A stretch of DNA of 51,982 nucleotides from Allobosea sp. (lineage in GTDB: Bacteria; Pseudomonadota; Alphaproteobacteria; Rhizobiales; Beijerinckiaceae). The DNA lies in the NCBI RefSeq assembly GCF_017308075.1, contig NZ_JAFKFX010000038.1, positions 1 through 51,982 of the forward strand, given 5' to 3'. Below are positions 31,395-46,440 of the stretch, piece by piece (positions within the stretch are counted from its first letter, which is position 1; each line of letters starts with the position of its first letter). The notes under the pieces were generated by a model. That model did not search any database, was not told the DNA's origin, and was given only the letters and a program-made list of their open reading frames with translations. Made by a program: the position numbers and the translations under genes.

Positions 31395-32531
31395 CTAGCG
31401 TCGTTTCGTCGCGAGCCTCCGCACCGCCGCGACCGCCCCCGCCGCGCCGTCGAGATCGACCGGAACCCGCTGCGGGCGCCCGCCCGCGAGCGCCTCGTCG
31501 ATCGCCGCGACGAGCACCCCGGGGCCGGCTTCGGGCCGCAGCAGGCGCGCCAGCCCGGCGCGTTCGAGCGCAGCCGCGCGTATCGCCTGCTCGGTCTCGT
31601 TGCCGGCATCGAAGGGCGCGACCAGCGCCCGCGGCCCTGCCTGCACCAGGTCGAGCACGGTGTTGTAGCCGGCCAGGCTGAGGCTGAGCGCGCAGTTGCG
31701 CAGCAGGGCCGGGAAATCCGGCCGGGCCCGTTCGACAATCGCGTTCGCCGGCGCCTGCCGCAGGAGAACGGCGAAGTCCGGCTCCGCCACACCATGGCCG
31801 ACGAGGAGGTGCCAATCCTGTGCCGGCAGCAGCTCCGCCGCCGCCAGAGCGAGCCGGAAGAGCGGCAGCGCCGCCGCCGAGCCGCCACCGGAGACCAGGA
31901 TCCCGCCGGACGCGGCGGGCGCCTCGGCCACCGGCGCCGGAGCGGCGAGATAGCCGGTATAGTGCAGCCTTTCGGCGAGCGCCGCAGGCACCGGCCAGGA
32001 AGCCTCGAGCGGGAGGAGTGCACGGTCGCCATGGACCAGCACCCCGTCGAACAGGTCTTCGAGGCGCCTATGCGCCTCTGCCAGGCGCTCCGGCCGCAGC
32101 GGTGCGACCAGCACGTCGCGGATCGAGGAGAGGACGACCACCTGCGGCCGCGCCGCGCGCGCCGCTTCGATCAGCGCCAGGAACTCGCCGGCCAATTGAC
32201 GCCGACCGAAGGGAAAATGCTCGGTGATGACGATGTCGGGCCGCAGCTCCCGCGCCAGCGCGGCCAGCCCCGCCTCCCGCGCCCCGAGACGCTGCGGCGT
32301 CGCCCGCTCCGCTTCCTCGTCGAGCAGATTGCGGAAATCAGTGCCGACGACCCGCACCGGCGGCAATTGCACGAAACGATAGCCATTCGCAGCCCTGCCA
32401 TCCGGCATGCCGCCGCTGGCGAGCACGACCTCGTATCCGGCCTGCGCCAGCGCCCCGGCCAGATGACGCGCCCGCACCAGATGGCCGATGCCGAGCAGAT
32501 GCGTCACCGCGATCAGGACGCGGCCGCTCAT
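31395..32531 (-). CDS. GT28/MurG-like glycosyltransferase (COG4671 type)
   Basis: A 378-residue GT-B protein. The N-terminal domain has THLLGIGHLVRARHLAGAL, the acceptor-side Gly-rich loop and His. The C-terminal donor domain has ILVSGGGSAAALPL and SLAGYNTVLDLVQAGPRALVAPF, equivalent to the MurG UDP-sugar site. It is last in an operon: its start overlaps the GT4 stop as ATGA (32528-32531). It resembles the protein at 48484-49767 in motif order. It likely adds a sugar to an envelope or secreted glycan. Confidence 0.85.
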   Translation of the reverse strand: MSGRVLIAVTHLLGIGHLVRARHLAGALAQAGYEVVLASGGMPDGRAANGYRFVQLPPVRVVGTDFRNLLDEEAERATPQRLGAREAGLAALARELRPDIVITEHFPFGRRQLAGEFLALIEAARAARPQVVVLSSIRDVLVAPLRPERLAEAHRRLEDLFDGVLVHGDRALLPLEASWPVPAALAERLHYTGYLAAPAPVAEAPAASGGILVSGGGSAAALPLFRLALAAAELLPAQDWHLLVGHGVAEPDFAVLLRQAPANAIVERARPDFPALLRNCALSLSLAGYNTVLDLVQAGPRALVAPFDAGNETEQAIRAAALERAGLARLLRPEAGPGVLVAAIDEALAGGRPQRVPVDLDGAAGAVAAVRRLATKRR

Positions 32532-33790
32532 GGCCCCTTCCCGCGCTCGACCTCCGCCAGCAATGCGGCATGGATCCGGGCCAGCCCCGCCTGCGCCGAG
32601 AAATCGGCTTGGAGGCGGGCATGGGCCCCGGCGCCCAGTGCCTCGCGCCGCGACGGGTCGCCGGCCAGGGCTCCGAGCGCGGCCGACAGGGCCGCGACAT
32701 CGCCCGGCGCGACCAGCAGCCCTTCGCTGTCATGGCGGACGAATTCCGGGATGCCGGCGAAATCGGTCGCGACGATCGCCAGCCCCTGGCTCGCAGCTTC
32801 CATCACCACATTGGGCAGCCCGTCTCGGTCGCCGTCGCCAGCCTGTTTGGAGGGCAGCACGAACAGATCGGCCTCGCGCAGCGCCGCCACCACGCCGTCC
32901 TGGGCGAGCGCGCCGCGCCATTCGATCCGCCCCGCGAGGCCGAGCGCCTCCGCCTGTGCCTTCAGCACGCCGAGCCTTTCGCCGCCGCCGATATGGGTGA
33001 AGCGCCAGGCGAGTCCCGCCGGCAGGGCGGCGAGCGCGTTCAGGAGATCGTCGAAGCCTTTCTTCTCGACGGCGCGGCCGATGCTGAGCAGGCGCACCGG
33101 GTCGCCGGCCTCCCCGCCATCGCGCGGCTGCCTCACCGGAGGCGGCGGAAAGCGGGCAAGATCGAGCCCGTGATAGAGCAGCGCCACCTTGTCCGGCCCA
33201 TCGGCCAGCCGGGCGAGCTCGGCATGGCCGTCCCGGGTGCAGGTCACGCCCCAGCTTGCATCGGCGATCTTCTCGCGCTTTTCCCAATCGGGCGTCGTCC
33301 AGATGTCCTTGGCATGGGCCGAGAACGACCAGGACAGCCCGCGGCTGAGCGCGGCATAGCGGATCACCGAAGCCGGCGTGTGCAGGAAATGCACATGCAG
33401 ATGCCGCGTTCCGGGCGGCAGTTCGCGTGCCATCACCAGGGCCTGGCCGAAGCGGCGCAGCCGGTTGCGCGTCGGATCACGGGCAAGATCGCGCAGGAAG
33501 ACGCCGAGCAGCCGCAGCAGGCTCGGCCGCGGCAGGGCCGAACCGAGGCCGCGCAGGACGCGCGGCCAGTCGTGATGCAGATATTCCGGCAGATAATGCA
33601 GCGGCGCCGCGATCTCCTTGTGCATCAGATGTCTGGCAGCATCGGTCGGATGGCGCAGCGACCAGATCGCGAAAGGCAGGCCACAGCGCTGCAGGGCGAG
33701 CAGCTCCTGCGCGATGAAGGTTTCGGAAAGGCGCGGATAGCCTTTCATGGCGATGGCGAGCGGCGGCCCGGCCGGCTTGTCCGCACTCAT
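32528..33790 (-). CDS. GT4 family glycosyltransferase
   Basis: A 420-residue GT-B enzyme. The N-terminal GYPRLSETFIAQELLALQRCG is typical of exopolysaccharide GT4 members. The donor domain reads LLSIGRAVEKKGFDDLLNAL then DLFVLPSKQAGDGDRDGLPNVVMEAASQGLAIVATDFAGIPEFV, including the EX7E-like region. It is flanked by ATGA overlaps with the methyltransferase (33787-33790) and the GT28-like gene, so all three are translated together. The sugar and acceptor are unknown. Confidence 0.93.
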   Translation of the reverse strand: MSADKPAGPPLAIAMKGYPRLSETFIAQELLALQRCGLPFAIWSLRHPTDAARHLMHKEIAAPLHYLPEYLHHDWPRVLRGLGSALPRPSLLRLLGVFLRDLARDPTRNRLRRFGQALVMARELPPGTRHLHVHFLHTPASVIRYAALSRGLSWSFSAHAKDIWTTPDWEKREKIADASWGVTCTRDGHAELARLADGPDKVALLYHGLDLARFPPPPVRQPRDGGEAGDPVRLLSIGRAVEKKGFDDLLNALAALPAGLAWRFTHIGGGERLGVLKAQAEALGLAGRIEWRGALAQDGVVAALREADLFVLPSKQAGDGDRDGLPNVVMEAASQGLAIVATDFAGIPEFVRHDSEGLLVAPGDVAALSAALGALAGDPSRREALGAGAHARLQADFSAQAGLARIHAALLAEVERGKGP

Positions 33791-34452
33791 TTGCGGCCGA
33801 TCAGCATGAAACGGGTATAATTCTTCGCCGGCAGGGCTCCGGCGAAACTCAGCTCCGACAACCCCGCCTGCTCCCGGAAGGCCTCCAGCGAGGCGACGCA
33901 GCTGCGATGGTCGGGCTCGCGAAAATAATCATTCGACTGCAGCACCAGCGGCAATCCGGCCGGCAGGCTCGCCAGCCAGCCCGGCACATCGTCGAGATGC
34001 TCGCAACTGGTGTTGACGACGAGGCCGGGCCTTCCGCCCGCGGGATCGGTGAAGTCGAGAGCCATCATATCCGCCGTGACCGCCCGGAAGCGCCCGGAAG
34101 CGACGTGCCGATGGTTGAGCACCTCGGCGATCTCGGCACAGCGCGGGTCGAGATCGACGCTCACCACCTGCCGGATCGAAAGCCGCTCATCCGCCAGCAG
34201 CATGGCGCCGAGAACTCCATGCCAGGCGCCGAGCACCCAGACCGGGCCATCCGGCCGCGGCATCACCGCGGCCAGGCTGTCGACCAGCCAACGCTTCGAG
34301 GCGATCTGCTTGTGATTGAAGGCGATCGAAAGATCGGAAGGCGCGCCCTTGCCGACCAGCCGGGCAAGATCGGCGACGATCGGCTGGTCGGTCAGAGCGG
34401 CGACGCCGCGCAGAATGTCGTAAAGAGCGTCGGCGGGCAGCGCGCTGGTCAT
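33787..34452 (-). CDS. SAM-dependent methyltransferase-like protein
   Basis: A 221-residue protein from ATG 34452; the upstream in-frame extension is not conserved in style. VWVLGAWHGVLGAMLLA is a SAM-binding motif I, followed by VVSVDLDPRCAEIAEVLN (motif II acidic loop) and MALDFTDPAGGRPGLVVNTSCEHLDD. The C-terminal YTRFMLIGRK is the usual last strand. The methyl acceptor is unknown; the coupled GT genes suggest a sugar or nucleotide-sugar. Its start codon shares the tetranucleotide CATG (34450-34453) with a possible start of the divergent gene, so no room remains for a classical promoter between them. Confidence 0.8.
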   Translation of the reverse strand: MTSALPADALYDILRGVAALTDQPIVADLARLVGKGAPSDLSIAFNHKQIASKRWLVDSLAAVMPRPDGPVWVLGAWHGVLGAMLLADERLSIRQVVSVDLDPRCAEIAEVLNHRHVASGRFRAVTADMMALDFTDPAGGRPGLVVNTSCEHLDDVPGWLASLPAGLPLVLQSNDYFREPDHRSCVASLEAFREQAGLSELSFAGALPAKNYTRFMLIGRK

Positions 34453-34483
34453 GCGGGCGATCGGCAGGGCAAGGGAGCGGAAG

Positions 34484-35095
34484 GTGACGGAACGCGCCGG
34501 ACCATATTCACAGTCGCCGCCAAAGACCAGCGCAGCGGCGAGCGGCACGAGGCTGCCGCATCTCGCCGGTCCCGCGGCCGAGCTGCGCCAGGTGCTCGCC
34601 GCCCACGCCCTGCGCGGCTGCGAGCATGTGGTGGAGATCGGCGGCGCCGGCCTGCCGATCACCGGCTTCCTGACCCACCGCCCCGCCTCGGTCACGGTGA
34701 TCGACCCGAAGATCCCGGCCTTTGCCGCCGAAACCCTGAACGGCGCGCCCTGCCGCGTCCGCCATCTCGCCGTCAAGCTGCAGCAGGTCGAGCTCGATCA
34801 GGGAGCCGGCCGCCTCGGCCTGGTCCTGCTCGGCCTCTCGCTGAAGCCCTTTGGCGGCGCACCGGCGCTGGACGACGCGCTGCTCGCCCTGGCGCGACGC
34901 GCCGAGGTGATGGTCATCGACCATGCCCTCGGGCTGGAACGCGCGCTTGGGCAGATCGGCCCCCTGCTGGCGGCACGCGATGCGCCGGCCATGATCGATG
35001 CCGAGATCAGGCTCAACGACGCCGGATTAGTGAAGGTGGGCTATGACCGCCGACGCTTCCTCGTCTTCGACAGGCGCGGGAAAGGCGCTCGCTGA
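34484..35095 (+). CDS. methyltransferase-like hypothetical protein
   Basis: From GTG 34484, preceded by AGGGAG with 6-nt spacing, the product is 203 residues; an ATG at 34451 gives 214. HVVEIGGAGLPITGFLTHRPASVTVIDPKIP looks like SAM-motif I plus the acidic loop, and LGLVLLGLSLK like motif IV. The rest is not familiar. It is head-to-head with the methyltransferase at 33787 and only 31 nt separate the two starts. It converges on the cyclase gene with a 19-nt gap. A partner role in the same glycan modification is a guess. Confidence 0.65.
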   Translation: MTERAGPYSQSPPKTSAAASGTRLPHLAGPAAELRQVLAAHALRGCEHVVEIGGAGLPITGFLTHRPASVTVIDPKIPAFAAETLNGAPCRVRHLAVKLQQVELDQGAGRLGLVLLGLSLKPFGGAPALDDALLALARRAEVMVIDHALGLERALGQIGPLLAARDAPAMIDAEIRLNDAGLVKVGYDRRRFLVFDRRGKGAR

Positions 35096-35114: not shown

Positions 35115-36887
35115 TCAATCCGGATCGCCTTCCGCCTCGGCCTTGGCCGGGCGCTTGCCGCGAGGCGACGCCGGCTCGCCCTTGGCGGGCGGCGCTTTCT
35201 CCGGCACGCCACCGAAACCAAAGACCTGCATCGGCTTGTCGCGGCCCTTGATCGCAATCTTGTAGGAGATCAGCCCCGGAAAGCTGCGGCCGGTGGCGGC
35301 GACCGTCTCGGCCGAGACGATGATGTCGGAAAGCAGCCGGCGCGTCGCCGCCTCGAGCTGGCTGGCGATCATCACGGTTTCACCGACCGTGATCTCGCGC
35401 CGCCCGATGCTCTCATTCTCGACCGCGCCCATGATCGCCGGCCCGCCATGGATCCCGATGCCGATGCGCAGCGGCAAGGGCAGGGCCGTCGCATATTCGC
35501 GGTTGAGCGCCTCGACGGCCCGCATCATGTCGCCGGCGGCGGCGATCGCGGCCATGCCGGCGCGGGCGGGCGTGGTCTCGAGGCCGAAGATGGCCATCAG
35601 CCCGTCGCCATAGATCGACTCGATCCGGCCGCCATGGGCGGCGATCGCCTGGGACATCTCGTCATAGAACCGGTTGAGCAGGGTCATCAGCTCCTGCGGG
35701 AGCTGCCTTTCGGCCAGGGCCGTGAAGGCGCGCAGATCGGCGACCATCACGGTCAGCCCCTTCCTGGCGATGCCGGCAGCGGGATCGAGCGCCCCTGTCG
35801 GACCGGCACCGCGCTGCCTGGCGGCAAGCAGGATCTGGACCTGGAGGTCGTGCTTCGGCCGGATCTGGCAGGCGAGGCGGACCCGCTCGCCAGCCGAGAT
35901 GCGACGCAGCAGCCGTGCCTCGTTCGGCCCGGGCGGCGGCAAATCGTCGGCGCCGTCGAGCACCAGCACGCGGCAGGTCGCGCAGCGGGCCCGCCCGCCA
36001 CACAGCGCCGCATGCGGAATGCCGAAGCGACGGAACATTTCCAGCAGGGTGAAGCCCGGCACGACCTTGCGCACGCCATGGCCGACGAAGCGGACGGTGA
36101 TCGCGCCCAGCGCCCGGGCCCGCAGCTCGCGGATCGCGACGAACAGCACGAAGCCTCCGACCAGGCCGAAGAAGGCCCGCTTCGCCCAGGTGACGTGCAG
36201 GTTGAAGGAATCGGCCTGCTGCGTGGTGTAGAGTTCCGGCGGCAGCGCCATCAGCCGCGCCTCGCGCCCGGCGACGACGAAGCCGATCAGCGCCAGCAGC
36301 GGCACCAGGATCGCCGCCAGCAGGAAAGGGTCGCGCCAGCGCGCATAGCTCTCGCGGGTGCGGAAGGTGAAGTGCAGCCCGATCACGCCATGCGTCCAGA
36401 CCAGCAGCAGCAGCAGGCTCTGCGTCAGCGCGAGATTCGGCCAGAGCCGGCGCAGCACGGCGTGATAGCTCTCGTCCTGCAGGAACAGCGCGCCCTGGAC
36501 ACGGGTCGCGACAATATGGTCGATCAGCAGCAGCGGGATCACCACGCCGAGCGCGATCTGCAGCACCTCGCGCATCGGCATGCGGAAGGTCCGGCGCTGC
36601 GCCACCCGCAGCAGCGCGAAGACGGGATGGATGATCAGCGAGCCATAGAGCAGAAGGAGCCCGAGCTTGCTGCTCCAGAATCCATGACGCCAGAGCTGCG
36701 CCGTCTCCATCGCCGCGAGGCCGAAGATCCCGACCGCGTGATTGACGAAATGCGTGGTCGCGAACAGCATCAGGATGCAGCCCGAGACGAAGCGCACGTC
36801 GCGGCTCCAGGAATTCACCTGCTCGAAATTGGAGGCGCTGGCCCGGCCGCCCGGAGTGGAAGGCCCCGAATTCGGAATCGAGCTCAT
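35115..36887 (-). CDS. six-TM, [2Fe-2S] ferredoxin, class III nucleotide cyclase-like protein
   Basis: A 590-residue protein in three parts. Residues 32-255 form six membrane helices with His46, His50, His87, His124, His166 and His172 in or near the helices, suiting b-type heme. Residues 262-355 are a plant-type ferredoxin with Cys296, Cys302, Cys305 and Cys340. Residues 376-560 are a class III cyclase domain keeping the metal Asps, Asp384 (VADLRAF) and Asp428 (YGDGLMAIFG). The motif normally reading VNxAxR is VMIASQ: the transition-state Asn is Met506 and the Arg is Gln510. It resembles the quinone-responsive diheme cyclase CyaC of Sinorhizobium. Cyclase activity is doubtful; redox sensing is likely. 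The start is ATG 36887 after GAGGG, 16 nt behind the cNMP-binding gene. Confidence 0.88.
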   Translation of the reverse strand: MSSIPNSGPSTPGGRASASNFEQVNSWSRDVRFVSGCILMLFATTHFVNHAVGIFGLAAMETAQLWRHGFWSSKLGLLLLYGSLIIHPVFALLRVAQRRTFRMPMREVLQIALGVVIPLLLIDHIVATRVQGALFLQDESYHAVLRRLWPNLALTQSLLLLLVWTHGVIGLHFTFRTRESYARWRDPFLLAAILVPLLALIGFVVAGREARLMALPPELYTTQQADSFNLHVTWAKRAFFGLVGGFVLFVAIRELRARALGAITVRFVGHGVRKVVPGFTLLEMFRRFGIPHAALCGGRARCATCRVLVLDGADDLPPPGPNEARLLRRISAGERVRLACQIRPKHDLQVQILLAARQRGAGPTGALDPAAGIARKGLTVMVADLRAFTALAERQLPQELMTLLNRFYDEMSQAIAAHGGRIESIYGDGLMAIFGLETTPARAGMAAIAAAGDMMRAVEALNREYATALPLPLRIGIGIHGGPAIMGAVENESIGRREITVGETVMIASQLEAATRRLLSDIIVSAETVAATGRSFPGLISYKIAIKGRDKPMQVFGFGGVPEKAPPAKGEPASPRGKRPAKAEAEGDPD

Positions 36888-36903
36888 AGTTGCCCTCGCG
36901 AGA

Positions 36904-37353
36904 TCACTGCGTCTTCTCGCCGCGCAGGACGGCACCGGCGAGCCGGTACAGCCGCGTGGCGAGGTCGCGCGACAGCGCCACCGCAAATTCAGGAACGCTG
37001 TCGAGCAGCTCGAAGAACAATTCGCGCGGCAGCCGCAACATCGAAACATCGGTCTTGGCGGTGATCCGGCCGACCGTGGGCTCGTTGGAGAGCAGCGGCA
37101 CGTCGCCGAGAAGGCTTCCCGTCGCCAGCCGGAAGGAATGCGCCTCACCGCTTGCCAGCGGGTGTGAGATCTCGATCTCGCCCTGGAGGATGCAGTAGAC
37201 CTCCTGCGGCCTCTGCCCCTCCTCGCTGATCAGGGTTCCGGCCGGGAAATGCCGCCGCTCCCCCATCAGCGCGAGCAGCTTGAGGCGCGATGCCGGCAGG
37301 GTCCGGAAAAGCGGAACCTCCTTCAGGCAGTTGATATCGCGCTCGAGCGTCAT
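36904..37353 (-). CDS. stand-alone cyclic nucleotide-binding domain protein
   Basis: A 149-residue protein consisting of one cNMP-binding domain and no helix-turn-helix. FRTLPASRLKLLALMGERRHFPAGTLISEEGQ is the N-terminal bundle and first strands. The phosphate-binding cassette reads LLGDVPLLSNEPTVGRITA: Gly83, then Asp84 where Glu is usual, and Arg96 kept. Arg96 normally grips the cyclic phosphate. The start overlaps the stop of the ABC-like gene as ATGA (37350-37353), and the cyclase-like gene follows closely. It probably reads or transmits the cyclase signal, perhaps to the ABC-like membrane protein. Confidence 0.93.
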   Translation of the reverse strand: MTLERDINCLKEVPLFRTLPASRLKLLALMGERRHFPAGTLISEEGQRPQEVYCILQGEIEISHPLASGEAHSFRLATGSLLGDVPLLSNEPTVGRITAKTDVSMLRLPRELFFELLDSVPEFAVALSRDLATRLYRLAGAVLRGEKTQ

Positions 37354-40082
37354 GTTCTCGCCTCGATCCGCCCGGCGCCGTCCTGCGGCGGCGGTGCGAT
37401 GAGCTCATCGGCCTCGCCTTCGGCCTCGTCTTCGCCCGGAATTTGGCCGGCCGGACCGCGGAAAACCAGCTTGTCCGAGATATCGGCAGCGAGGTGGGGG
37501 TCGGTCAAGAGCAGGAACAGCGTCTGTTCCCGGCAATGGGCGATGAGACGCGAAACCAGCCCGGCAGGATCGCTGCCTGCGGCGAGGAAGCCGTCGAGAT
37601 CGAGCACCAATATGTCGGGGCGTTTGATCAGCGCCTGGGCGAGCGGCACCATCAGCCGCAGCCGCAGCGGCAGATGGCGGCCGCGCGGCCCGGCATCGGT
37701 GTCGAGCCCGAGACGGTAGGCGGCCGCGTCCAGGCCCGCCCGCGACAAGGCGTTGCGGACGATCGCCGCCACCTTCTCCCCGGCATCGGCGCCGAAGCCG
37801 AGGCGGCCGAAGAAGAGGTTGTCGCGCACGCTGGCACCGTGGATGACGTCGTTGGGATCGTAGAACTCGACCTCTTCGCTGCTCTCCGGCGGCTGATAGG
37901 TCTTGAAGGTCTGGCGCGCGCGCAGGATGCGGCGCTGCAGGGCGTCGTCGAGCAGGTTGAGCCGGTGTTTGGGCTCGATATAGCGCAGCGCCAGCCCCAT
38001 GACCTCGCGTTGCGTCTCCGGGTCGAGTGGCCCACGCATATCGTGCCGGCGCAGCGCCTCGGCGAGCTCGTTCAGCTTCTCGATATCGAGGTCGCCGCCG
38101 AAACCATAGCGCGCGAACAGCGCCTGGCCCTGGACCATGTCGGCGAAAATTTCGACCAGGGTGTTGACGATGCGCGCCCCGATCTCGGTGAGCGGCTCCT
38201 CGAGCGCTTCCGCCTGGAGCACGGATCGGGCGTAGGAATCTTCGAGCAGCACCTCCGCCGGCCTGCGGCCGTTGCGGATCGCGCCGAAGATCAGATTCTC
38301 GGCAATCGTCGCATTGGCGTTGTAGCGCTCGGGATCGAAGGTCTCGATCAGCCCGCCCAGATTCGACCGCGCCAATTCGGCGGTGACCACCCGGCGCGCC
38401 TCGATGATGCGCTCGGCCGCCCCTTCCGGCAGCGGCGCGATCACCTTGGCGTCCAGGCCGAGCTCGTAGATTTCGTCGGAGCAGCCGAGCATGTCGAGCA
38501 CGGCGAGCACATGCGCCTCCAGGGCATCGGCCCCCTCCAGCCCGACGCCTTCATAGTCGTTCCAGTCGGCGGTGAAGGGCAGCGGCGTATTGCCGGCGCG
38601 CAGCGCCTCGATGAAGCGACGATGCTCGGTCTGATCGACCGAACGACCCGGCCGGATCGTCGGTCGCCGCCGCTTCAGCGGCAGCAGCAGATTGTCGCGC
38701 AGCCGGCCATTGATGATCTCGGCATCCGGGCCGGCATAGCCGATCATATGGCTGGCGCTCTCGACGCTGAACGAGCTCAGCGGCCGACCATCGATGAGCA
38801 CCCGTCCTTCATAGCCCATGCTCTGCCGGCCGAGAATGCGTCCTAGCGTGTCGCGCCCGCTGCCAGCGGGCCCGATCAGGGCGATGCAGCCGGGGCGCTT
38901 CACCGAAAAGGAAAGCGGCAGCAGCAGCGGCTGGCCGCGATGATCCGACATCTCGACCTTGTCGAGCCGGATTTCGCCCTGCTTCGGCAGACTCGCAACC
39001 CCGTCCTTCTCCTCGAGCTCCAGCGTCTCGCGCGGATTGAACTGCGCGATCACCTGCTCGTATTTGATCATGACGTCGTTGCGCTGCTGGTCCCAGTCGA
39101 TCAGCTCCTTCACCGGCGGCGGCAAGTCGCGATAGGCGCCGATCACGGCGACGAGCTGGCCGATGTCGAGCCGGCCTTGCAACGCGAAGAAGCCGCCGAT
39201 CGCGTAGAAGAAGAAGGGCGTGATCTGCGCCAGGAGGTTGTTCAGGAACTTGACCGCGAATTTGCGCTTGTAGAGCGCGAAGCGGATATCGAACAGCGTG
39301 CCGAGCCGGCCGGCAATGTCGGACTGGATATAGGAGGTCGCGCCATGGCCCTGGATGGTCGGGCCGGCATCGACAATCTCGCCGATCCTGCCGGCGAGCT
39401 GGCGCGAGGCGATCTGGCGCTCGCGACCGAGGCGCAATTGCTCACGGCGCAGGATCGGGATGATCACGGCCTGCATCAGCACGATCAAAAGCGCGATCGA
39501 GCCGAGCCAGACGCTCTGCATCATGATGAAGACCAGCGCCGTCAGCGCCTGGCTGAGCAGGAAGGCCGGCTGGATGAAGGCGTCGCCGACGAAGCTGCCG
39601 ATCGGCTCGACCTCGTCCTTGATCATGCTCGCCACCTCGGCCGGCTTGACCGCGCGGATATCCTCCGGACGGAAACGCATCAGCTGAGCGAAAAGATCGT
39701 AGCGCATGCGCCGCAACATGCGCTCGCCGAGAATGCCCTTGCGCACATTGATGGCGTATTTGAAGCCGCCATTGATCAGCACGAGGCCGAGGAAATAGAA
39801 GCTCAGCGACAGCAGCAGGCCGAGCTGCCCGACCTGGAAGCCCTCGAAGATCGGCAGGCTGCCGCCGCCGAGGAGATCGGGCAGATGCAGGGTCCAGTCG
39901 AAGACCGTCACCGAGGTCCTGCCGTTTCTGAAGGCGCCCCCCTGGATCGCATCGTTGACGATGCGCTTGGGCACGTCGAACGAGGCCCAGTTGAACGGGA
40001 TCGAGACGAGGATGATCAGCAGAACGACGATCTGCTCGGCGCGGCTCTTCTGCCAGACATACCGGAAGAGGCTTCTCTCCAA
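37350..40082 (-). CDS. ABC exporter-like membrane protein with degenerate nucleotide-binding domain and long insertion
   Basis: A 910-residue protein. Residues 1-320 are a type I exporter membrane domain (SIPFNWASFDVPKRIVNDAI, MLRRMRYDLFAQLMRF, VAVIGAYRDLPPPVKELIDW). The ATPase domain is altered at most key sites. Walker A is GPAGSGRDT (404-412), with Lys changed to Arg410 and Ser/Thr to Asp411. The signature region reads LPLRLRLM, not LSGGQ (804-811). Walker B is ILVLDLDG with Leu829 in place of the catalytic Glu. Walker A and B are about 415 residues apart instead of some 120. The insertion holds three similar motifs: RLRDNLLL (460), TIAENLIFG (592), SVRDNLFFG (751). It is first in an operon with the cNMP-binding and cyclase-like genes. 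ATP-driven transport is unlikely in the usual form. Confidence 0.9.
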   Translation of the reverse strand: MERSLFRYVWQKSRAEQIVVLLIILVSIPFNWASFDVPKRIVNDAIQGGAFRNGRTSVTVFDWTLHLPDLLGGGSLPIFEGFQVGQLGLLLSLSFYFLGLVLINGGFKYAINVRKGILGERMLRRMRYDLFAQLMRFRPEDIRAVKPAEVASMIKDEVEPIGSFVGDAFIQPAFLLSQALTALVFIMMQSVWLGSIALLIVLMQAVIIPILRREQLRLGRERQIASRQLAGRIGEIVDAGPTIQGHGATSYIQSDIAGRLGTLFDIRFALYKRKFAVKFLNNLLAQITPFFFYAIGGFFALQGRLDIGQLVAVIGAYRDLPPPVKELIDWDQQRNDVMIKYEQVIAQFNPRETLELEEKDGVASLPKQGEIRLDKVEMSDHRGQPLLLPLSFSVKRPGCIALIGPAGSGRDTLGRILGRQSMGYEGRVLIDGRPLSSFSVESASHMIGYAGPDAEIINGRLRDNLLLPLKRRRPTIRPGRSVDQTEHRRFIEALRAGNTPLPFTADWNDYEGVGLEGADALEAHVLAVLDMLGCSDEIYELGLDAKVIAPLPEGAAERIIEARRVVTAELARSNLGGLIETFDPERYNANATIAENLIFGAIRNGRRPAEVLLEDSYARSVLQAEALEEPLTEIGARIVNTLVEIFADMVQGQALFARYGFGGDLDIEKLNELAEALRRHDMRGPLDPETQREVMGLALRYIEPKHRLNLLDDALQRRILRARQTFKTYQPPESSEEVEFYDPNDVIHGASVRDNLFFGRLGFGADAGEKVAAIVRNALSRAGLDAAAYRLGLDTDAGPRGRHLPLRLRLMVPLAQALIKRPDILVLDLDGFLAAGSDPAGLVSRLIAHCREQTLFLLLTDPHLAADISDKLVFRGPAGQIPGEDEAEGEADELIAPPPQDGAGRIEART

Positions 40083-40420: not shown

Positions 40421-42307
40421 ATGGATATTCTTGAGATCAGGGACCTGCGTATCGGCTTCACCGTCCACGGCCTCGCTCGCGATGTCGTGAAGGGCGTTTC
40501 TTTCCGGATCCCCGCCGGCAAAACCGTGGCGCTCGTCGGGGAATCCGGCTCGGGCAAATCGGTGATCTCGCAGGCGATCATGGGCTTGCTGCCGCGGGCC
40601 GGCGCCGTCACCGGCGGGCAGATCCTGTTCCGCGATCCACAGGATCAGGCGATGGCGATCGACATCGCCGCGCTGCCGGCGGAGGGCAAGGAGATCAGAG
40701 CGCTGCGCGGCGGGCGCATCGGCATGATCTTCCAGGAGCCGATGTCCTCGCTCTCGCCGGTCCATACCATCGGCAACCAGATCGAAGAGGCGCTGCTCCT
40801 GCACCGGCCGATGCCGAAGCCGCAGGCCAGGGAGCTGATCGCCGCGATGCTGAAGCGCGTCGGCTTCAAGGACCCGGTGCGAGCCTATGGCTTCTACCCG
40901 TTCGAGCTCTCCGGCGGCCTGCGCCAGCGCGCCATGCTCGCCATGGCGCTGATCTGCAAGCCGGCTCTGCTGATCGCCGACGAGCCGACCACCGCGCTCG
41001 ACGTCACCATCCAGGCCCAGGTCCTCGACCTGATGCGCGAGCTCCAGGCCGAGATGGGCATGGCGATCCTGCTCATCACCCATGATCTCGGCGTCGTCGC
41101 CAACATGGCCGACGAGGTCGTGGTGATCTACCATGGCGAGATCATGGAAAGCGGCACCGCCGAGGATATCTTCCGCCGCCCGCAGCATCCCTATCTCAAG
41201 GCTCTGCTCAACGCCTCGCCGCATTTCGACATGCAGGAGGGCGAAAGGCTGGTGGCGCTGCGCGAGGCGCGTCCGCGCCCGCCGGCCACCACCAAGGCGC
41301 AGCCGGCCCCGCGCCCTGCCGGCAGCCCGGACGCGCCATTGCTCGCAGTACGCCATCTGCGCAAGACCTACACCACCGGTTCCAGCCGCTTCTTCGGCAA
41401 GTCCACGAAAGCGACCGTGCTGGCGGTCGACGATGTCGGCTTCGACATCAGGCGCGGCGAGTGCCTCGGCCTGGTCGGCGAGAGCGGCTGTGGCAAGACC
41501 ACGGTCAGCAAGCTGATCATGCGGGCGGTCACCGCCGATTCCGGCGAGGTCTGGTTCGACGACGGCCAGCGGCGCACTGATGTCCTCGGGCTGAAGGGCG
41601 AGGAACTGCGCCGCTTCCGCACCCGCGTCCAGATGATCTTCCAGGATCCGGTCTCGTCACTCTCGCCGCGCATGACGGTGATGAACATCCTGCGCGAGCC
41701 GCTCTCCATCCATGAGCGCGGTGACGGCGCCGAGCAGAAGGCTCGCGTCAGGGCGCTGATGGAGGATGTCGGGCTCGATCCGCGCTTCCTCAACCGCTAT
41801 CCGCATTCCTTCTCCGGCGGCCAGCGCCAGCGCATCGGCATCGCCCGCGCGCTTGCGCTCGATCCTGACCTGATCATCTGCGACGAGCCGGTGTCGGCGC
41901 TCGACGTATCGGTCCAGGCCCAGGTCCTCAACCTGCTCAAGGATCTCCAGGCCGAGCGCGGGCTGACCTTCCTGTTCATCTCGCACAATCTCGCCGTGGT
42001 GAACTACATGGCCGATCGGATCGCGGTGATGGCCAATGGCCGCATCGTCGAGCTCGCGCCGCGCCACACCCTGTTCAGCGCGCCGGTCCACCCCTACACC
42101 AAGGCGCTGCTGAAATCGGTCCCCTTCGCCGATCTCGACCGCAAGCTCGACTTCAAGCTGGCGGCGCCCAGCGGCGCCTCCGACATGCGGCACTGGCCGG
42201 CCTGCTTCAAGCCGGAGGGCGATGGCGAGCGGCTCGCCCATCTCGATCTCGGCGCCGGCCATCTCGTGCTCGCCCGCCAGGGCGCAGACGTCAGGGAGCT
42301 TGCCTGA
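40421..42307 (+). CDS. oligopeptide-type ABC transporter, duplicated ATP-binding protein
   Basis: A 628-residue protein with two complete ATPase domains, as in YejF or fused OppD-OppF. Domain 1 has [20 protein letters not shown] and [12 protein letters not shown]. Domain 2 has [23 protein letters not shown] and [12 protein letters not shown]. Each has an Opp-type C-terminal extension. It energises import of peptides or similar solutes with the two permeases downstream. The last 35 residues, after the usual end, contain a Cys in [12 protein letters not shown] that may be the Opp-type FeS-like remnant. Its stop overlaps the binding-protein start by one base (TGATG). Confidence 0.96.
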
Positions 42308-44244
42308 TGACGACGCGGCGCGAAACCTTGGCGATGCTCGCCGCGCTGGCCGCACAGACGGTTCCCTTCGCAGGCGCCGCCCGGGCCCGGGACTATATCG
42401 ACAGCCCTGCCCTCGCCGCCCAGGTCGCGGCCGGGCAGCTGCCGCCGCTCGCCCAGCGCCTGCCCCAAAATCCACGCGTCATCGATGTCGGCGCGATGGG
42501 GCGCGAGCCCGGCCGGCATGGCGGCACGGTACGCATGCTGATGGGCGACCAGCGCGACATCCGCATGATGACGATCTACGGCTATGCCCGTCTCGTCGGC
42601 TATGACGACAAGCTCGACCTTGTGCCGGACCTGCTGGAATCCGTCGAGGTCGAGCAGGGGCGCATCTTCACCCTGCGGCTGCGGGCCGGGCACCGCTGGT
42701 CCGACGGACATCCCTTCACCGCCGAGGATTTTCGCTACTGGTGGGAGGATGTCGCCAACAACAGGCGGCTCTCGCCGGGCGGGCCGCCTCAGGCCCTGGT
42801 CATCGCCGACGAGAAGGCAACACTCGAAATCCTCGACCAGCGCACGCTGCGCTATTCCTGGGCCAGGCCGAACCCGGTCTTCCTGCCGGCGCTGGCCGGT
42901 GCCCAGCCGCTCTATATCGCCATGCCCGCCCATTATCTGCGGCAATTCCATGAGCGTTATGCCGACAAGGAGGCGCTGGCGAAAAAGGTCCGGGAGATCC
43001 GCGTCAAGGACTGGGGCGCGCTGCACGAGCGCTTCTCGCGCCAGTACCGCCCGGAGAACCCCGACCTGCCGACGCTCGATGCCTGGCGCAACACCACGCC
43101 GATCCCGGCCGAGCAGTTCATCTTCGTCCGCAACCCCTATTTCCATCGCGTCGACGAGAATGGCCGGCAATTGCCCTATGTCGACGAGGTCAAGATCAAT
43201 ATCGGCACAGCATCGCTGATCCCGGCCAAGACTGCGGCCGGCGAGGCCGATTTGCAGGCCCGCTATCTGCGCTTCGACAACTACACCTTCCTCAAGGAAG
43301 CCTCGAAGCGGATGAATTTCGACGTCCGGCTCTGGAAGCGCGCGGAAGGCGCTTATTTCGCGCTGATGCCCAATCTCAATGCCGTCGATCCGGCCTGGCG
43401 CACGCTCAACCGCGACCAGCGCTGGCGCCGGGCGCTCTCGCTCTCGATCAACCGCAAGGACGTCAACCGGGTCATCTTCTTCGGCCTGGCCAAGGAAAGT
43501 GGCAACACCGCCCTGCCCGAAAGCCCGCTCCACGACCGCTCGCTCGCCCATATGTGGATGAAGCAGGACCGGGCGGAGGCGAACCGCCTGCTCGACGAGA
43601 TCGGGCTCGACAAGCGCGATTCGGAAGGCATCAGGCTGTTTCCCGACGGCAGGCGCCTGGAATTCACCATCGAGACCGCCGGCGCCTCGACCGAGGAGAC
43701 CGACATCCTCGATCTGCTGAAGGAGGATTTCCGCGCCATCGGCCTGAAGATGCACCCGCGCTCCTCGCAGCTCGACGTCTTCCGCCGCCGCATCCTCGCC
43801 GGCCAGACGGTGATGTCGGTCTGGACCGGCATGGACAATGCGCTGGTCGCCGCCGAGATGGAGCCCGACGCGCTGGCGCCGACCTCGTCCAGCCAGTTCA
43901 ACTGGCCGCGCTGGGGCCAGTTCTTCGAATCCGGCGGGCGCGAGGGCGAGGCGCCCGATCTGCCGGAGGCCCGGGAGCTGAGCGAGCTCTACATCGCCTG
44001 GCGCCGCTCGACGACCCATGAGGAGCGCCGGCTGATCTGGCAGAAGATGCTGCGGATCAATGCCGAGCAGCTCTTCTCGATCGGCGTGATCAACGCCACG
44101 CTTCAGCCGGTCGTGGTTTCCAGGGACCTGCGCAACGTCCCCGAGAAAGGGCTCTACAGCTTCGAGCCCGGCGCCTTCTTCGGCCGCTATCTGCCGGACA
44201 CCTTCTGGTTCGCCGACGCGCCGGCGGCAAAGCGGGAGCCGTGA
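42307..44244 (+). CDS. ABC transporter extracellular solute-binding protein, family 5
   Basis: A 645-residue periplasmic receptor. The signal peptide [27 protein letters not shown] is Tat-like (TRRETLAML). The mature protein has family 5 hallmarks: LRAGHRWSDGHPFTAEDFRYWWED, RNPYFHRVDENGRQLPYVDEV and WRRALSLSINRKDVN. At over 600 residues it is longer than DppA and similar to YejA-type receptors. It carries peptides or glycan-derived solutes to the permease pair. The ligand is not evident. Confidence 0.95.
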   Translation: MTTRRETLAMLAALAAQTVPFAGAARARDYIDSPALAAQVAAGQLPPLAQRLPQNPRVIDVGAMGREPGRHGGTVRMLMGDQRDIRMMTIYGYARLVGYDDKLDLVPDLLESVEVEQGRIFTLRLRAGHRWSDGHPFTAEDFRYWWEDVANNRRLSPGGPPQALVIADEKATLEILDQRTLRYSWARPNPVFLPALAGAQPLYIAMPAHYLRQFHERYADKEALAKKVREIRVKDWGALHERFSRQYRPENPDLPTLDAWRNTTPIPAEQFIFVRNPYFHRVDENGRQLPYVDEVKINIGTASLIPAKTAAGEADLQARYLRFDNYTFLKEASKRMNFDVRLWKRAEGAYFALMPNLNAVDPAWRTLNRDQRWRRALSLSINRKDVNRVIFFGLAKESGNTALPESPLHDRSLAHMWMKQDRAEANRLLDEIGLDKRDSEGIRLFPDGRRLEFTIETAGASTEETDILDLLKEDFRAIGLKMHPRSSQLDVFRRRILAGQTVMSVWTGMDNALVAAEMEPDALAPTSSSQFNWPRWGQFFESGGREGEAPDLPEARELSELYIAWRRSTTHEERRLIWQKMLRINAEQLFSIGVINATLQPVVVSRDLRNVPEKGLYSFEPGAFFGRYLPDTFWFADAPAAKREP

Positions 44245-44248
44245 CGCC

Positions 44249-45250
44249 GTGCTGCTGAGCTACATCTTCAAGCGTATCCTGGTGATGATCCCGACGCTGC
44301 TGATCACCAGCGCCCTGATCTTCACGGTCATCAACCTGCCGGAAGGCGACTATTTCGAGACCATGGTCGCCGAGATGCAGGCCCAGGGCGAGAAGGCGGA
44401 CATGAGCCGCGTCGAGTTCCTGAAGAAGGAATACGGTTTCGACAAGCCGCCACTGGAGCGCTATTTCTGGTGGGTCACCGGCCTCCTGCGCGGCGACATG
44501 GGCTATTCCTTCGAATACCAGCTGCCGGTCCGCGACATCGTCGGCGACCGGCTCTTCCTGACCATGGTGGTCTCCTTCTTCACCATCATCTTCACCTGGA
44601 TCGTCGCCTTCCCGATCGGCATCTATTCGGCGACGCATCAGTACAGCTGGGGCGATTACGGGCTCTCCTTCATCGGCCTGATCGGCCTCGCCGTGCCGCA
44701 TTTCCTGCTGGCGCTGATCTTTCTCTATTTCGCCAATGTCTGGTTCGGCACCTCGATCGGCGGGCTCGTCGACCCGCAATATCTCAACCAGCCGATGAGC
44801 TGGGCGAAGTTCAAATCGGTGCTCGAGCATCTCTGGATACCGGTGATCATCATCGGCGCCGGCGGCACCGCCGGGATGATCCGCTCGGTGCGCGCCAACC
44901 TGCTCGACGAACTCCAGAAGCAGTATTACGTCACCGCCCGCGCCAAGGGCCTGCCGCCCGGCAAGGCACTGCGCAAATACCCCTTACGCATGTCGCTGAA
45001 CTTCTTCATCTCGGATATCGGCGACATCCTGCCCTCGATCGTCTCCGGCGCCGAGATCGTTGCCATCGTGCTCTCGCTGCAGACCACCGGCCCGCTGCTG
45101 ATCCGCGCCCTGCAGAGCCAGGACATGTATCTCGCCGGCTCCTTCCTGATGTTCCTGTCTTTCCTGACGGTGATCGGCGTGCTCATCTCGGATATTGCGC
45201 TCGCGATCCTCGACCCGCGCATCCGCCTGCAGGGAACGGCGACCAAGTGA
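44249..45250 (+). CDS. ABC transporter permease, DppB/YejB type
   Basis: A 333-residue permease starting at GTG 44249, 5 nt after the receptor stop. LLSYIFKRILVMIPTLLITSALIFTVINLPEGDYF is the typical first helix. The binding-protein-dependent motif, with GAGGTAGMIRSVRANLLDELQKQYYVTARAKGLP, is the EAA loop that contacts the ATPase. About six membrane helices are present. The stop overlaps the next permease start (GTGA). Confidence 0.95.
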   Translation: MLLSYIFKRILVMIPTLLITSALIFTVINLPEGDYFETMVAEMQAQGEKADMSRVEFLKKEYGFDKPPLERYFWWVTGLLRGDMGYSFEYQLPVRDIVGDRLFLTMVVSFFTIIFTWIVAFPIGIYSATHQYSWGDYGLSFIGLIGLAVPHFLLALIFLYFANVWFGTSIGGLVDPQYLNQPMSWAKFKSVLEHLWIPVIIIGAGGTAGMIRSVRANLLDELQKQYYVTARAKGLPPGKALRKYPLRMSLNFFISDIGDILPSIVSGAEIVAIVLSLQTTGPLLIRALQSQDMYLAGSFLMFLSFLTVIGVLISDIALAILDPRIRLQGTATK

Positions 45251-46440
45251 CGACCTCGCCGCCCCCCGCCAACGAGCCCGCCGCCGGCCCTGCCCCCTTG
45301 CCGCATCGCTGGTCGACGGCGCCGTTCGAGCCCTATGCCGTCGAGAAGATGTCGCCGGAGCAGGAGCGCGTCTATCTCGCCTCGCAGCTCCAGCTGATGT
45401 GGTGGAAATTCCGCCGGCACAAGCTCGCGGTGATCTCCGGCGTCGTCATCCTGGTGATGTATTTCTCGGTGGCGATCTGCGAGTTCCTCGCACCCTATCA
45501 CTATACGACCCGCGACACCGACTTCATCCGCGCCCCGCCGCAGCGCGTGCACCTCTTCCACGAAGGCAGCTTCCTCGGCCCCTTCGTCTACCCCTATACC
45601 CAGCGCCTCAACATGGAGAATCTGAAGCGCGAATACGACGTCGACACCTCGCGCCCGCAGCAGATCCGCTTCTTCTGTCGCGGCGAGGACTATTATTTCT
45701 GGGGCCTTTTCCCCGGCAATCTGCGGCTGTTCTGTCCGCCGGAGGGCGGCACGCTCTTCCTGCTCGGCACCGACCGGCTCGGCCGCGACATGTTCTCGCG
45801 CATCCTCTATGGCGGGCGCATCTCGCTGACCATCGGCCTGCTCGGCGTCATGGTCTCCTTCGTGCTGGGCGTGATCATCGGCGGCATCGCCGGCTATTAC
45901 GGCGGCAAGGTCGATCTCTTCGTCCAGCGGCTGATCGAGATCGTGCAGTCGCTGCCGCATATCCCGCTCTGGCTCGCCCTGAGCGCGATCATGCCGGCCT
46001 CCTGGAGCCCGCTCCTGGTCTATTTCGGCATCACCGTGATCCTCGGCCTGATGGACTGGACCGGGCTGGCGCGGGCCGTTCGCTCGAAGCTGCTCTCATT
46101 GCGCGAGGAGGATTATGTCGTCGCCGCCCAGCTGATGGGAGCAAAGCCCGCCCGCATCATCGGCCTGCATCTCGTGCCTGGCTTCATGAGCCATCTGATC
46201 GCCGCCGCGACGATCACCGTGCCAAAGACCATCCTCGGCGAGACCGCCCTCTCCTTCCTCGGCCTCGGCCTCAGGCCGCCGATCACCAGCTGGGGCGTGC
46301 TGCTCAACGAAGCGCAGAACATCAACGTGGTGGCGCTCTATCCCTGGCTGCTTTATCCGTGCGTCCCGGTCATCCTGATCATCCTCGCCTTCAATTTCCT
46401 CGGTGACGGCCTGCGCGACGCAGCCGATCCCTATCGCTGA
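45247..46440 (+). CDS. ABC transporter permease, DppC/YejE type
   Basis: A 397-residue permease starting at GTG 45247, sharing GTGA with the stop of the previous gene. A long soluble N-terminus precedes the first helix (KLAVISGVVILVMYFSVAICEFLAPY), followed by a periplasmic segment of about 120 residues with FCRGEDYYFWG. HLFGTD-like LLGTDRLGRDMFSRILYGGRISL is the OppC signature. SLREEDYVVAAQLMGAKPARIIGLHLVPG is the EAA loop. It completes the transporter; all four genes overlap or nearly touch. The glycosyltransferase gene begins 27 nt later on the same strand. Confidence 0.95.
   Translation: MTTSPPPANEPAAGPAPLPHRWSTAPFEPYAVEKMSPEQERVYLASQLQLMWWKFRRHKLAVISGVVILVMYFSVAICEFLAPYHYTTRDTDFIRAPPQRVHLFHEGSFLGPFVYPYTQRLNMENLKREYDVDTSRPQQIRFFCRGEDYYFWGLFPGNLRLFCPPEGGTLFLLGTDRLGRDMFSRILYGGRISLTIGLLGVMVSFVLGVIIGGIAGYYGGKVDLFVQRLIEIVQSLPHIPLWLALSAIMPASWSPLLVYFGITVILGLMDWTGLARAVRSKLLSLREEDYVVAAQLMGAKPARIIGLHLVPGFMSHLIAAATITVPKTILGETALSFLGLGLRPPITSWGVLLNEAQNINVVALYPWLLYPCVPVILIILAFNFLGDGLRDAADPYR

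Follow-up and report, generated by a model that had tools for sequence, protein, structure and literature searches.

An ABC exporter-like protein, a cyclic-nucleotide-binding protein and a degenerate six-TM cyclase in one Bosea operon: a conserved alphaproteobacterial module that may read redox without a second messenger

In the window (the whole analysed stretch of 51,982 nucleotides from an Allobosea contig), three genes on the minus strand form an operon, in the order ABC exporter-like protein, stand-alone cyclic-nucleotide-binding (CNB) domain and cyclase-like protein. We consider it an evenly balanced proposition that a widespread alphaproteobacterial membrane module is present here in a lineage-specific form, one that is catalytically silent and would read redox and signal by contact without a second messenger. 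The layout, with an ATGA overlap and then a 16-nt gap, is as an earlier note on this DNA had described it, and among the matches listed no NCBIfam model was passed at cut-off by any of the three proteins.

37350..40082, minus strand: ABC exporter-like gene (910 aa, TTG start), with a type IV exporter-like membrane domain and a degenerate, enlarged NBD
36904..37353, minus strand: stand-alone CNB domain gene (149 aa), its start codon overlapping the ABC stop (ATGA)
35115..36887, minus strand: six-TM, [2Fe-2S], class III cyclase-like gene (590 aa), 16 nt past the CNB stop

The ABC protein has an exporter-type transmembrane domain (Pfam ABC_membrane; MsbA profile 3.7e-26, under that profile's cut-off) and a fragment of ABC_tran, and its best profile matches are MsbA/ABCB-type exporters.

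39141..39806, minus strand: ABC transmembrane region (PF00664, residues 93-314, E 1.7e-10)
38850..38873, minus strand: degenerate Walker A (residues 404-411, GPAGSGRD; K to R, S/T to D)
37533..38771, minus strand: three related post-Q-loop helical copies (residues about 438-560, 561-722 and 723-850)
37596..37673, minus strand: lost signature to degenerate Walker B (LPLRL, residues 804-808; ILVLDL, residues 824-829)

The ATPase motifs, which the earlier note had called broken, are indeed altered throughout: Walker A reads GRD, the LSGGQ signature has become LPLRL, Walker B reads DL, and the H-loop His is absent. It is the transmembrane domain and the first half of the NBD that resemble the MsbA/ABCB-type (type IV) exporters; the family differs from them in its non-canonical motifs, in a CNB domain that is either separate or fused, and in an NBD larger by about 300 residues, whose helical segment is triplicated family-wide (hhalign E 3.5e-11 for copies 2 and 3, 2.2e-8 for 1 and 3, and 3.7e-5 for 1 and 2). 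Walker A GK[ST], Walker B DE and the H-loop His occur together in none of 168 loci (126 non-Bosea, 42 Bosea-group), and since the NBD is thus non-canonical in every locus counted, the ATPase defect would be ancient. Judged by its motifs, the Bosea protein has lost more than its relatives, the signature too: the signature Gln is kept in 114/126 non-Bosea loci vs 0/42 Bosea-group loci (motif counts and ABC tree omit L083 and L102, in which the C-terminal half is unaligned). In raw counts, an acid at the Walker A Ser/Thr is strongly associated with loss of the Walker B Asp (82/20/10/26 over 138 rows, Fisher p 2e-8); on independent pairs, a carboxylate swap of Walker A S/T to D/E with Walker B D to N/S is not significant.

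The CNB protein is, as the earlier note held, a free cyclic-nucleotide-binding domain (Pfam cNMP_binding PF00027, E 6.6e-16), and it carries damage which that note had overlooked.

37063..37107, minus strand: CNB phosphate-binding cassette (residues 83-97, GDVPLLSNEPTVGRI; conserved Arg lost)

The canonical Glu and Arg of the cassette are both missing, the Glu having become Asp. The Arg is present in 119 of the 121 non-Bosea loci counted, vs none of the 42 Bosea-group rows. Ten CNB-domain proteins are found in the window's genome.

The third protein matches Guanylate_cyc (PF00211, 1.3e-13) and Fer2 (1.9e-7), with Cytochrome_B under the cut-off, and has six hydrophobic clusters in its hydropathy profile, all of which agrees with its earlier description as a six-TM, [2Fe-2S], class III cyclase-like protein.

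36390..36752, minus strand: stretch with four invariant intramembrane His (46, 87, 124 and 166), candidate heme b ligands
35853..36065, minus strand: [2Fe-2S] ferredoxin domain, predicted (Fer2, residues 275-345; C296, C302, C305 and C340)
35229..35756, minus strand: class III cyclase homology domain (residues 378-553; metal Asp 384 and 428 kept)

The four His, each in a TM segment of its own, and the four Cys are kept in 59/59 rows (58 distinct, L036 and L151 being one locus). This His pattern is the one expected for two bis-His hemes, as in diheme succinate dehydrogenase-type membrane domains; at sequence level the membrane part is a CyaC-like six-TM domain with His ligands, and the Fer2 fold has all four of its Cys ligands. 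The protein thus probably binds heme b and a [2Fe-2S] cluster, and its fully conserved His and Cys are consistent with a redox sensor.

The cyclase active site is damaged, again as the earlier note had read it: the base-binding Lys is replaced by S424 and the specificity Asp by E503, and of the transition-state pair the Asn is now M506 and the Arg Q510, while the metal-binding pair D384 and D428 is present. The two metal Asp are kept in 42/42 and 41/42 Bosea rows, so nucleotide may still be bound. In the window's genome the single class III match (E <= 0.001) is the operon gene itself, and no class I cyclase was found. A cyclic-nucleotide relay, which the earlier note had drawn through the CNB protein, is not supported for Bosea, where the cyclase active site and the CNB Arg are both lost and the genome offers no other class III or class I cyclase. 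We regard as improbable a continued cyclic nucleotide synthesis in Bosea through a non-canonical cyclase site, with the CNB protein binding the product or another ligand. The kept metal Asp speak for it, as does the cyclase homology domain, which is conserved in Bosea like the rest of the protein (mean pairwise identity 0.78, compared with 0.73 for the TM part and 0.85 for Fer2), and relatives have cyclase and CNB both intact; against this, K, N and R are lost together, along with the CNB Arg, in 42/42 Bosea-group rows, and the genome holds no other class III protein with which the cyclase could form a heterodimer.

The Bosea operon is maintained. The nearest named locus is that of Bosea sp. 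WAO (ABC protein identity 90%), and the synteny of the operon is kept in 40/41 named Bosea-group loci, the sole exception being L051, whose contig ends inside the cyclase gene. Median pairwise dN/dS over 39 Bosea-group sequences per gene is 0.31 for ABC, 0.43 for CNB and 0.30 for the cyclase (a simple pairwise method, in which 0.3-0.4 is moderate; L051, L057 and L078 are left out), and between the window and its nearest relative 0.13, 0.21 and 0.16, respectively. Synteny and pairwise values well below 1 argue that the operon is neither a chance arrangement nor a pseudogene; its three genes are under purifying selection. In the MAG locus L078, the ABC frame is interrupted, giving two ORFs. A module decaying in Bosea after the loss of cAMP signalling, with no present function, would agree with catalytic or binding motifs gone in all three proteins, with the 5 of 41 Bosea genomes that are without the ABC gene (36/41 have it, E <= 1e-40) and with the broken frame of L078; we nevertheless think it slightly less credible even than a surviving cyclase activity, given dN/dS clearly below 1 in three genes, invariant redox ligands, the kept synteny and the unbroken frames of all 39 sequences used.

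More widely, the ABC family is found in 96/289 alphaproteobacterial genomes (class sample, E <= 1e-60) and in 115/397 genomes of the order Hyphomicrobiales. In a phylum sample, whose non-alphaproteobacterial share is not given, 21/299 genomes match (E <= 1e-100), all 21 of them Alphaproteobacteria. Furthermore, 263 of 72,556 plasmid records hold the family, mostly from Rhizobium (144) and Sinorhizobium (80). A member also lies on the mobilizable plasmid pNYY1_4 of Methylobacterium radiotolerans (L212), with no annotated CNB, cyclase or glycosyltransferase (GT) gene adjoining. In several Bosea genomes the ABC gene is present twice; the second copies show 42-52% identity and open frames of about 1,020-1,130 aa, and class III cyclases occur within about 10 kb on the same contig.

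The earlier note had proposed a search for co-occurrence of the three genes, and that search yields a conserved neighbourhood. We compared 60 of 121 places in the order and 59 of 101 in the class, hand-picked across families and hence non-random, the order sample including five genomes twice (second copies). The CNB domain adjoins the ABC protein or is fused to it in 55/59 class-sample and 59/60 order-sample loci, 114/119 in total; no CNB gene was detected in the remaining five (L091, L099, L139, L140 and L164). Eleven of these loci (5 class, 6 order) are CNB-ABC fusions, which argues for a physical complex, and adjacency points the same way. In L159, L160, L166 and L169, CNB-fused ABC paralogues adjoin oppositely oriented cyclases that are far larger (743-1087 aa open frames) and have intact active sites.

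The cyclase is tied to the pair in the order above all, and beyond it most pairs have no cyclase nearby: within 3 kb of the ABC gene, 37/60 Hyphomicrobiales loci have a class III cyclase vs 5/59 class-sample loci, where chance would give 1.4 per sample (background density 301 cyclases per 114 Mb in 25 class-sample genomes, none taken from the order sample). With loci treated as independent, the order-sample linkage is far beyond chance even at the highest density (p about 1e-30), and that of the class sample (p 0.01, 0.26) is close to what chance gives if the highest background density is assumed. By type, the 37 nearest cyclases in the order sample divide into 15 six-TM/[2Fe-2S] ones and 22 others. 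Five cyclase states placed on the ABC tree require 19 changes; the linkage was therefore gained or lost many times. Among the open-access papers searched, none on an ABC-CNB-cyclase cluster was listed.

Where the active sites were lost can be followed along the family. Eight loci have a six-TM/[2Fe-2S] cyclase with metal Asp, Lys, Asn and Arg intact, the sole departure being a specificity Asp changed to Arg in L172, and in 8/8 the CNB Arg-[Ser/Thr] is kept. A further 51 rows of this cyclase type (42 Bosea-group, nine non-Bosea) have lost the Lys and, wherever that position is readable, the Asn too; 49 of the 51 lack the CNB Arg-[Ser/Thr], L102 and L157 keeping Arg-Ser despite a degenerate cyclase. 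The nine non-Bosea rows keep the cyclase Arg in six cases and the CNB Arg in all, the following Ser/Thr being lost in seven; the losses therefore look stepwise, with the cyclase first. The degenerate cyclases form one group in an ABC tree built without NBD columns (SH-aLRT 93; 138 rows, among them 12 of the 42 Bosea rows), and in the cyclase tree the degenerate and Bosea rows split from the intact ones (99/98). As a repeated pattern, co-loss of cyclase and CNB sites is rejected, with only one independent pair available; it is one evolutionary event, and the correlation is no proof of cause. Nor is the rule general: in five loci whose cyclases, of other types, deviate from the intact pattern, the CNB site is nonetheless intact. 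The question raised earlier, whether the missing residues are missing everywhere, has a divided answer: for the ABC NBD they are (168/168), whereas the defects of cyclase and CNB are confined to certain lineages, the same slot holding intact versions elsewhere.

The substrate is suggested by the genes next door.

33787..34452, minus strand: methyltransferase-like gene of the adjoining GT operon (start approximate; the L213 relative is annotated as a class I SAM-dependent methyltransferase)
32528..33790, minus strand: GT4 glycosyltransferase (homologues near ABC+CNB in 41/59 class-sample and 44/60 order-sample loci)
31395..32531, minus strand: GT28-type glycosyltransferase (homologues in 30/59 class-sample and 40/60 order-sample loci)
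40421..46440, plus strand: oligopeptide-type ABC importer, divergent (ATPase 40421-42307, binding protein 42307-44244)
44249-45250 and about 45253-46440, plus strand: permeases of this importer

The GT cluster comprises two GT28-type and two GT4-type members, a histidine phosphatase and methyltransferases; the methyltransferase-like gene at 33787..34452 has no Pfam match. At least two genes of the cluster lie near the ABC gene in 43/59 class, 45/60 order and 38/41 named Bosea-group loci. It runs divergently in many families; in others it is co-directional and lies upstream, and in Bosea it lies downstream. The link thus outlasts rearrangement. Of the interpretation in the earlier note, a real, conserved module is supported, by its CNB and GT linkage and, in Hyphomicrobiales, its cyclase linkage; the second-messenger relay is not supported for Bosea. 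A Methyltransf_17 gene lies 3' of CNB in many non-Bosea loci (L110:8862-9371), with a homologue in 27/59 class-sample loci. A small ORF at 34451-35095 (plus strand), convergent with the cyclase gene, has a homologue in L034, none in L045 and no Pfam match. On R. johnstonii pRL11 and an S. meliloti plasmid the genes run cyclase, oligopeptide-type importer, GTs, ABC, CNB. The importer's binding protein has homologues in 52 loci, of which 13 do not belong to the Bosea group; the tie to the importer in Bosea and Rhizobium/Sinorhizobium is an association only.

It is from these neighbours that we infer glycan export, and the GT linkage, together with the MsbA/ABCB-type profile matches, would also suit an ordinary ATP-driven glycan exporter, beside which the cyclase reflects mere transcriptional or metabolic grouping. 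We find this no easier to accept than a surviving cyclase activity: the canonical set of Walker A K[ST], Walker B DE and H-loop His is absent from all 168 loci, the helical segment of the NBD is triplicated, CNB fusions occur, and in Hyphomicrobiales the cyclase is linked far above chance.

Three known systems invite comparison. S. meliloti CyaC (SMc01818) is described as a quinone-redox-responsive six-TM diheme b class III adenylate cyclase, active and working via Clr and CycR, with its gene adjoining a TetR gene (PMC10463352). By that description the Bosea protein is alike in its six TM before a class III cyclase domain, the His in its TM helices and a plausible part in sensing redox; it differs in its Fer2 domain, the passages of the CyaC paper that were searched mentioning no [2Fe-2S] or ferredoxin part, in the loss of K, N and R, and in lying beside an ABC+CNB pair, which the cyaC gene, as described there, does not. 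MsbA2 of S. meliloti (SMb21191) is reported as a pSymB-borne ABC exporter of an unknown polysaccharide that adjoins GT genes, and its removal as harmful only if those GT genes are intact (PMC3687685, PMC12239276). As an orthologue MsbA2 was rejected: the ORF at its expected place (L216:21312-23105) scores 128 bits vs 929-1160 for four family members and has canonical motifs, and a genuine ABC family member lies elsewhere on an S. meliloti plasmid (L213).

Anti-phage Pycsar systems, finally, share the layout of a cyclase and a CNB protein, and the shared domains give weak matches to the PADLOC profiles PycC and TIR-CNB. That the operon is a Pycsar-like system with a CNB effector is nonetheless very hard to credit: the PADLOC matches are limited to common cyclase and CNB domains, the ABC protein has none, the pairing of an active cyclase and an effector of the CNB-TM or CNB-TIR kind is absent (no TM or TIR effector match was obtained), the cyclase is degenerate, and the module has an ABC protein and a GT neighbourhood that is stable across families.

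For the silent, redox-reading form we therefore propose the following, drawing function from the neighbours and the kept ligands. The core of the module would be an ABC exporter-like protein, with the non-canonical, enlarged NBD of its family, on which the CNB subunit is docked, and this pair most likely controls or performs the passage of a glycan or glycolipid that the adjacent glycosyltransferases build. Hyphomicrobiales would have added a class III cyclase, one type of which has six TM, probably heme b-binding, and a [2Fe-2S] domain; with these domains on the cyclase, respiratory or quinone redox would set cyclic nucleotide production, and the cyclic nucleotide level would in turn switch the CNB-ABC complex. 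The clade to which Bosea belongs lost the residues for cyclase catalysis, and Bosea itself also the CNB Arg and the NBD signature. The Bosea version most likely still reads redox and relays it to the CNB-ABC complex by direct protein contact, with no second messenger, since selection still acts on cofactor ligands, gene order and proteins. The sequences themselves show the architecture with its conservation, linkage and fusions, the lost residues and the selection; from these we infer that heme and cluster are bound, that a complex forms, that a glycan is the substrate, which way the signal runs and that activity is lacking. A bolder version, which we entertain only tentatively and think rather unlikely, is that contact via a ligand-free CNB adaptor lets a redox pseudo-cyclase in the membrane switch a glycan conduit of ABC fold, catalysis, second messenger and ATP hydrolysis having been dropped and sensing kept, and that family-wide the ABC protein is a cyclic-nucleotide-gated, non-hydrolysing gate, not a pump.

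Generic annotations (ABC transporter, CNB protein, cyclase) are thereby gathered into one testable module of many Alphaproteobacteria, rhizobial symbiosis plasmids included, with an ABC NBD that has a triplicated helical segment and lacks the canonical catalytic set in every member counted. The module would offer a cyclic-nucleotide target that is a membrane transporter, not a transcription factor, and a natural series from intact to dead cyclases sharing what is predicted to be one redox sensor. In Bosea, it may be a case of a second-messenger pathway replaced by protein contact.
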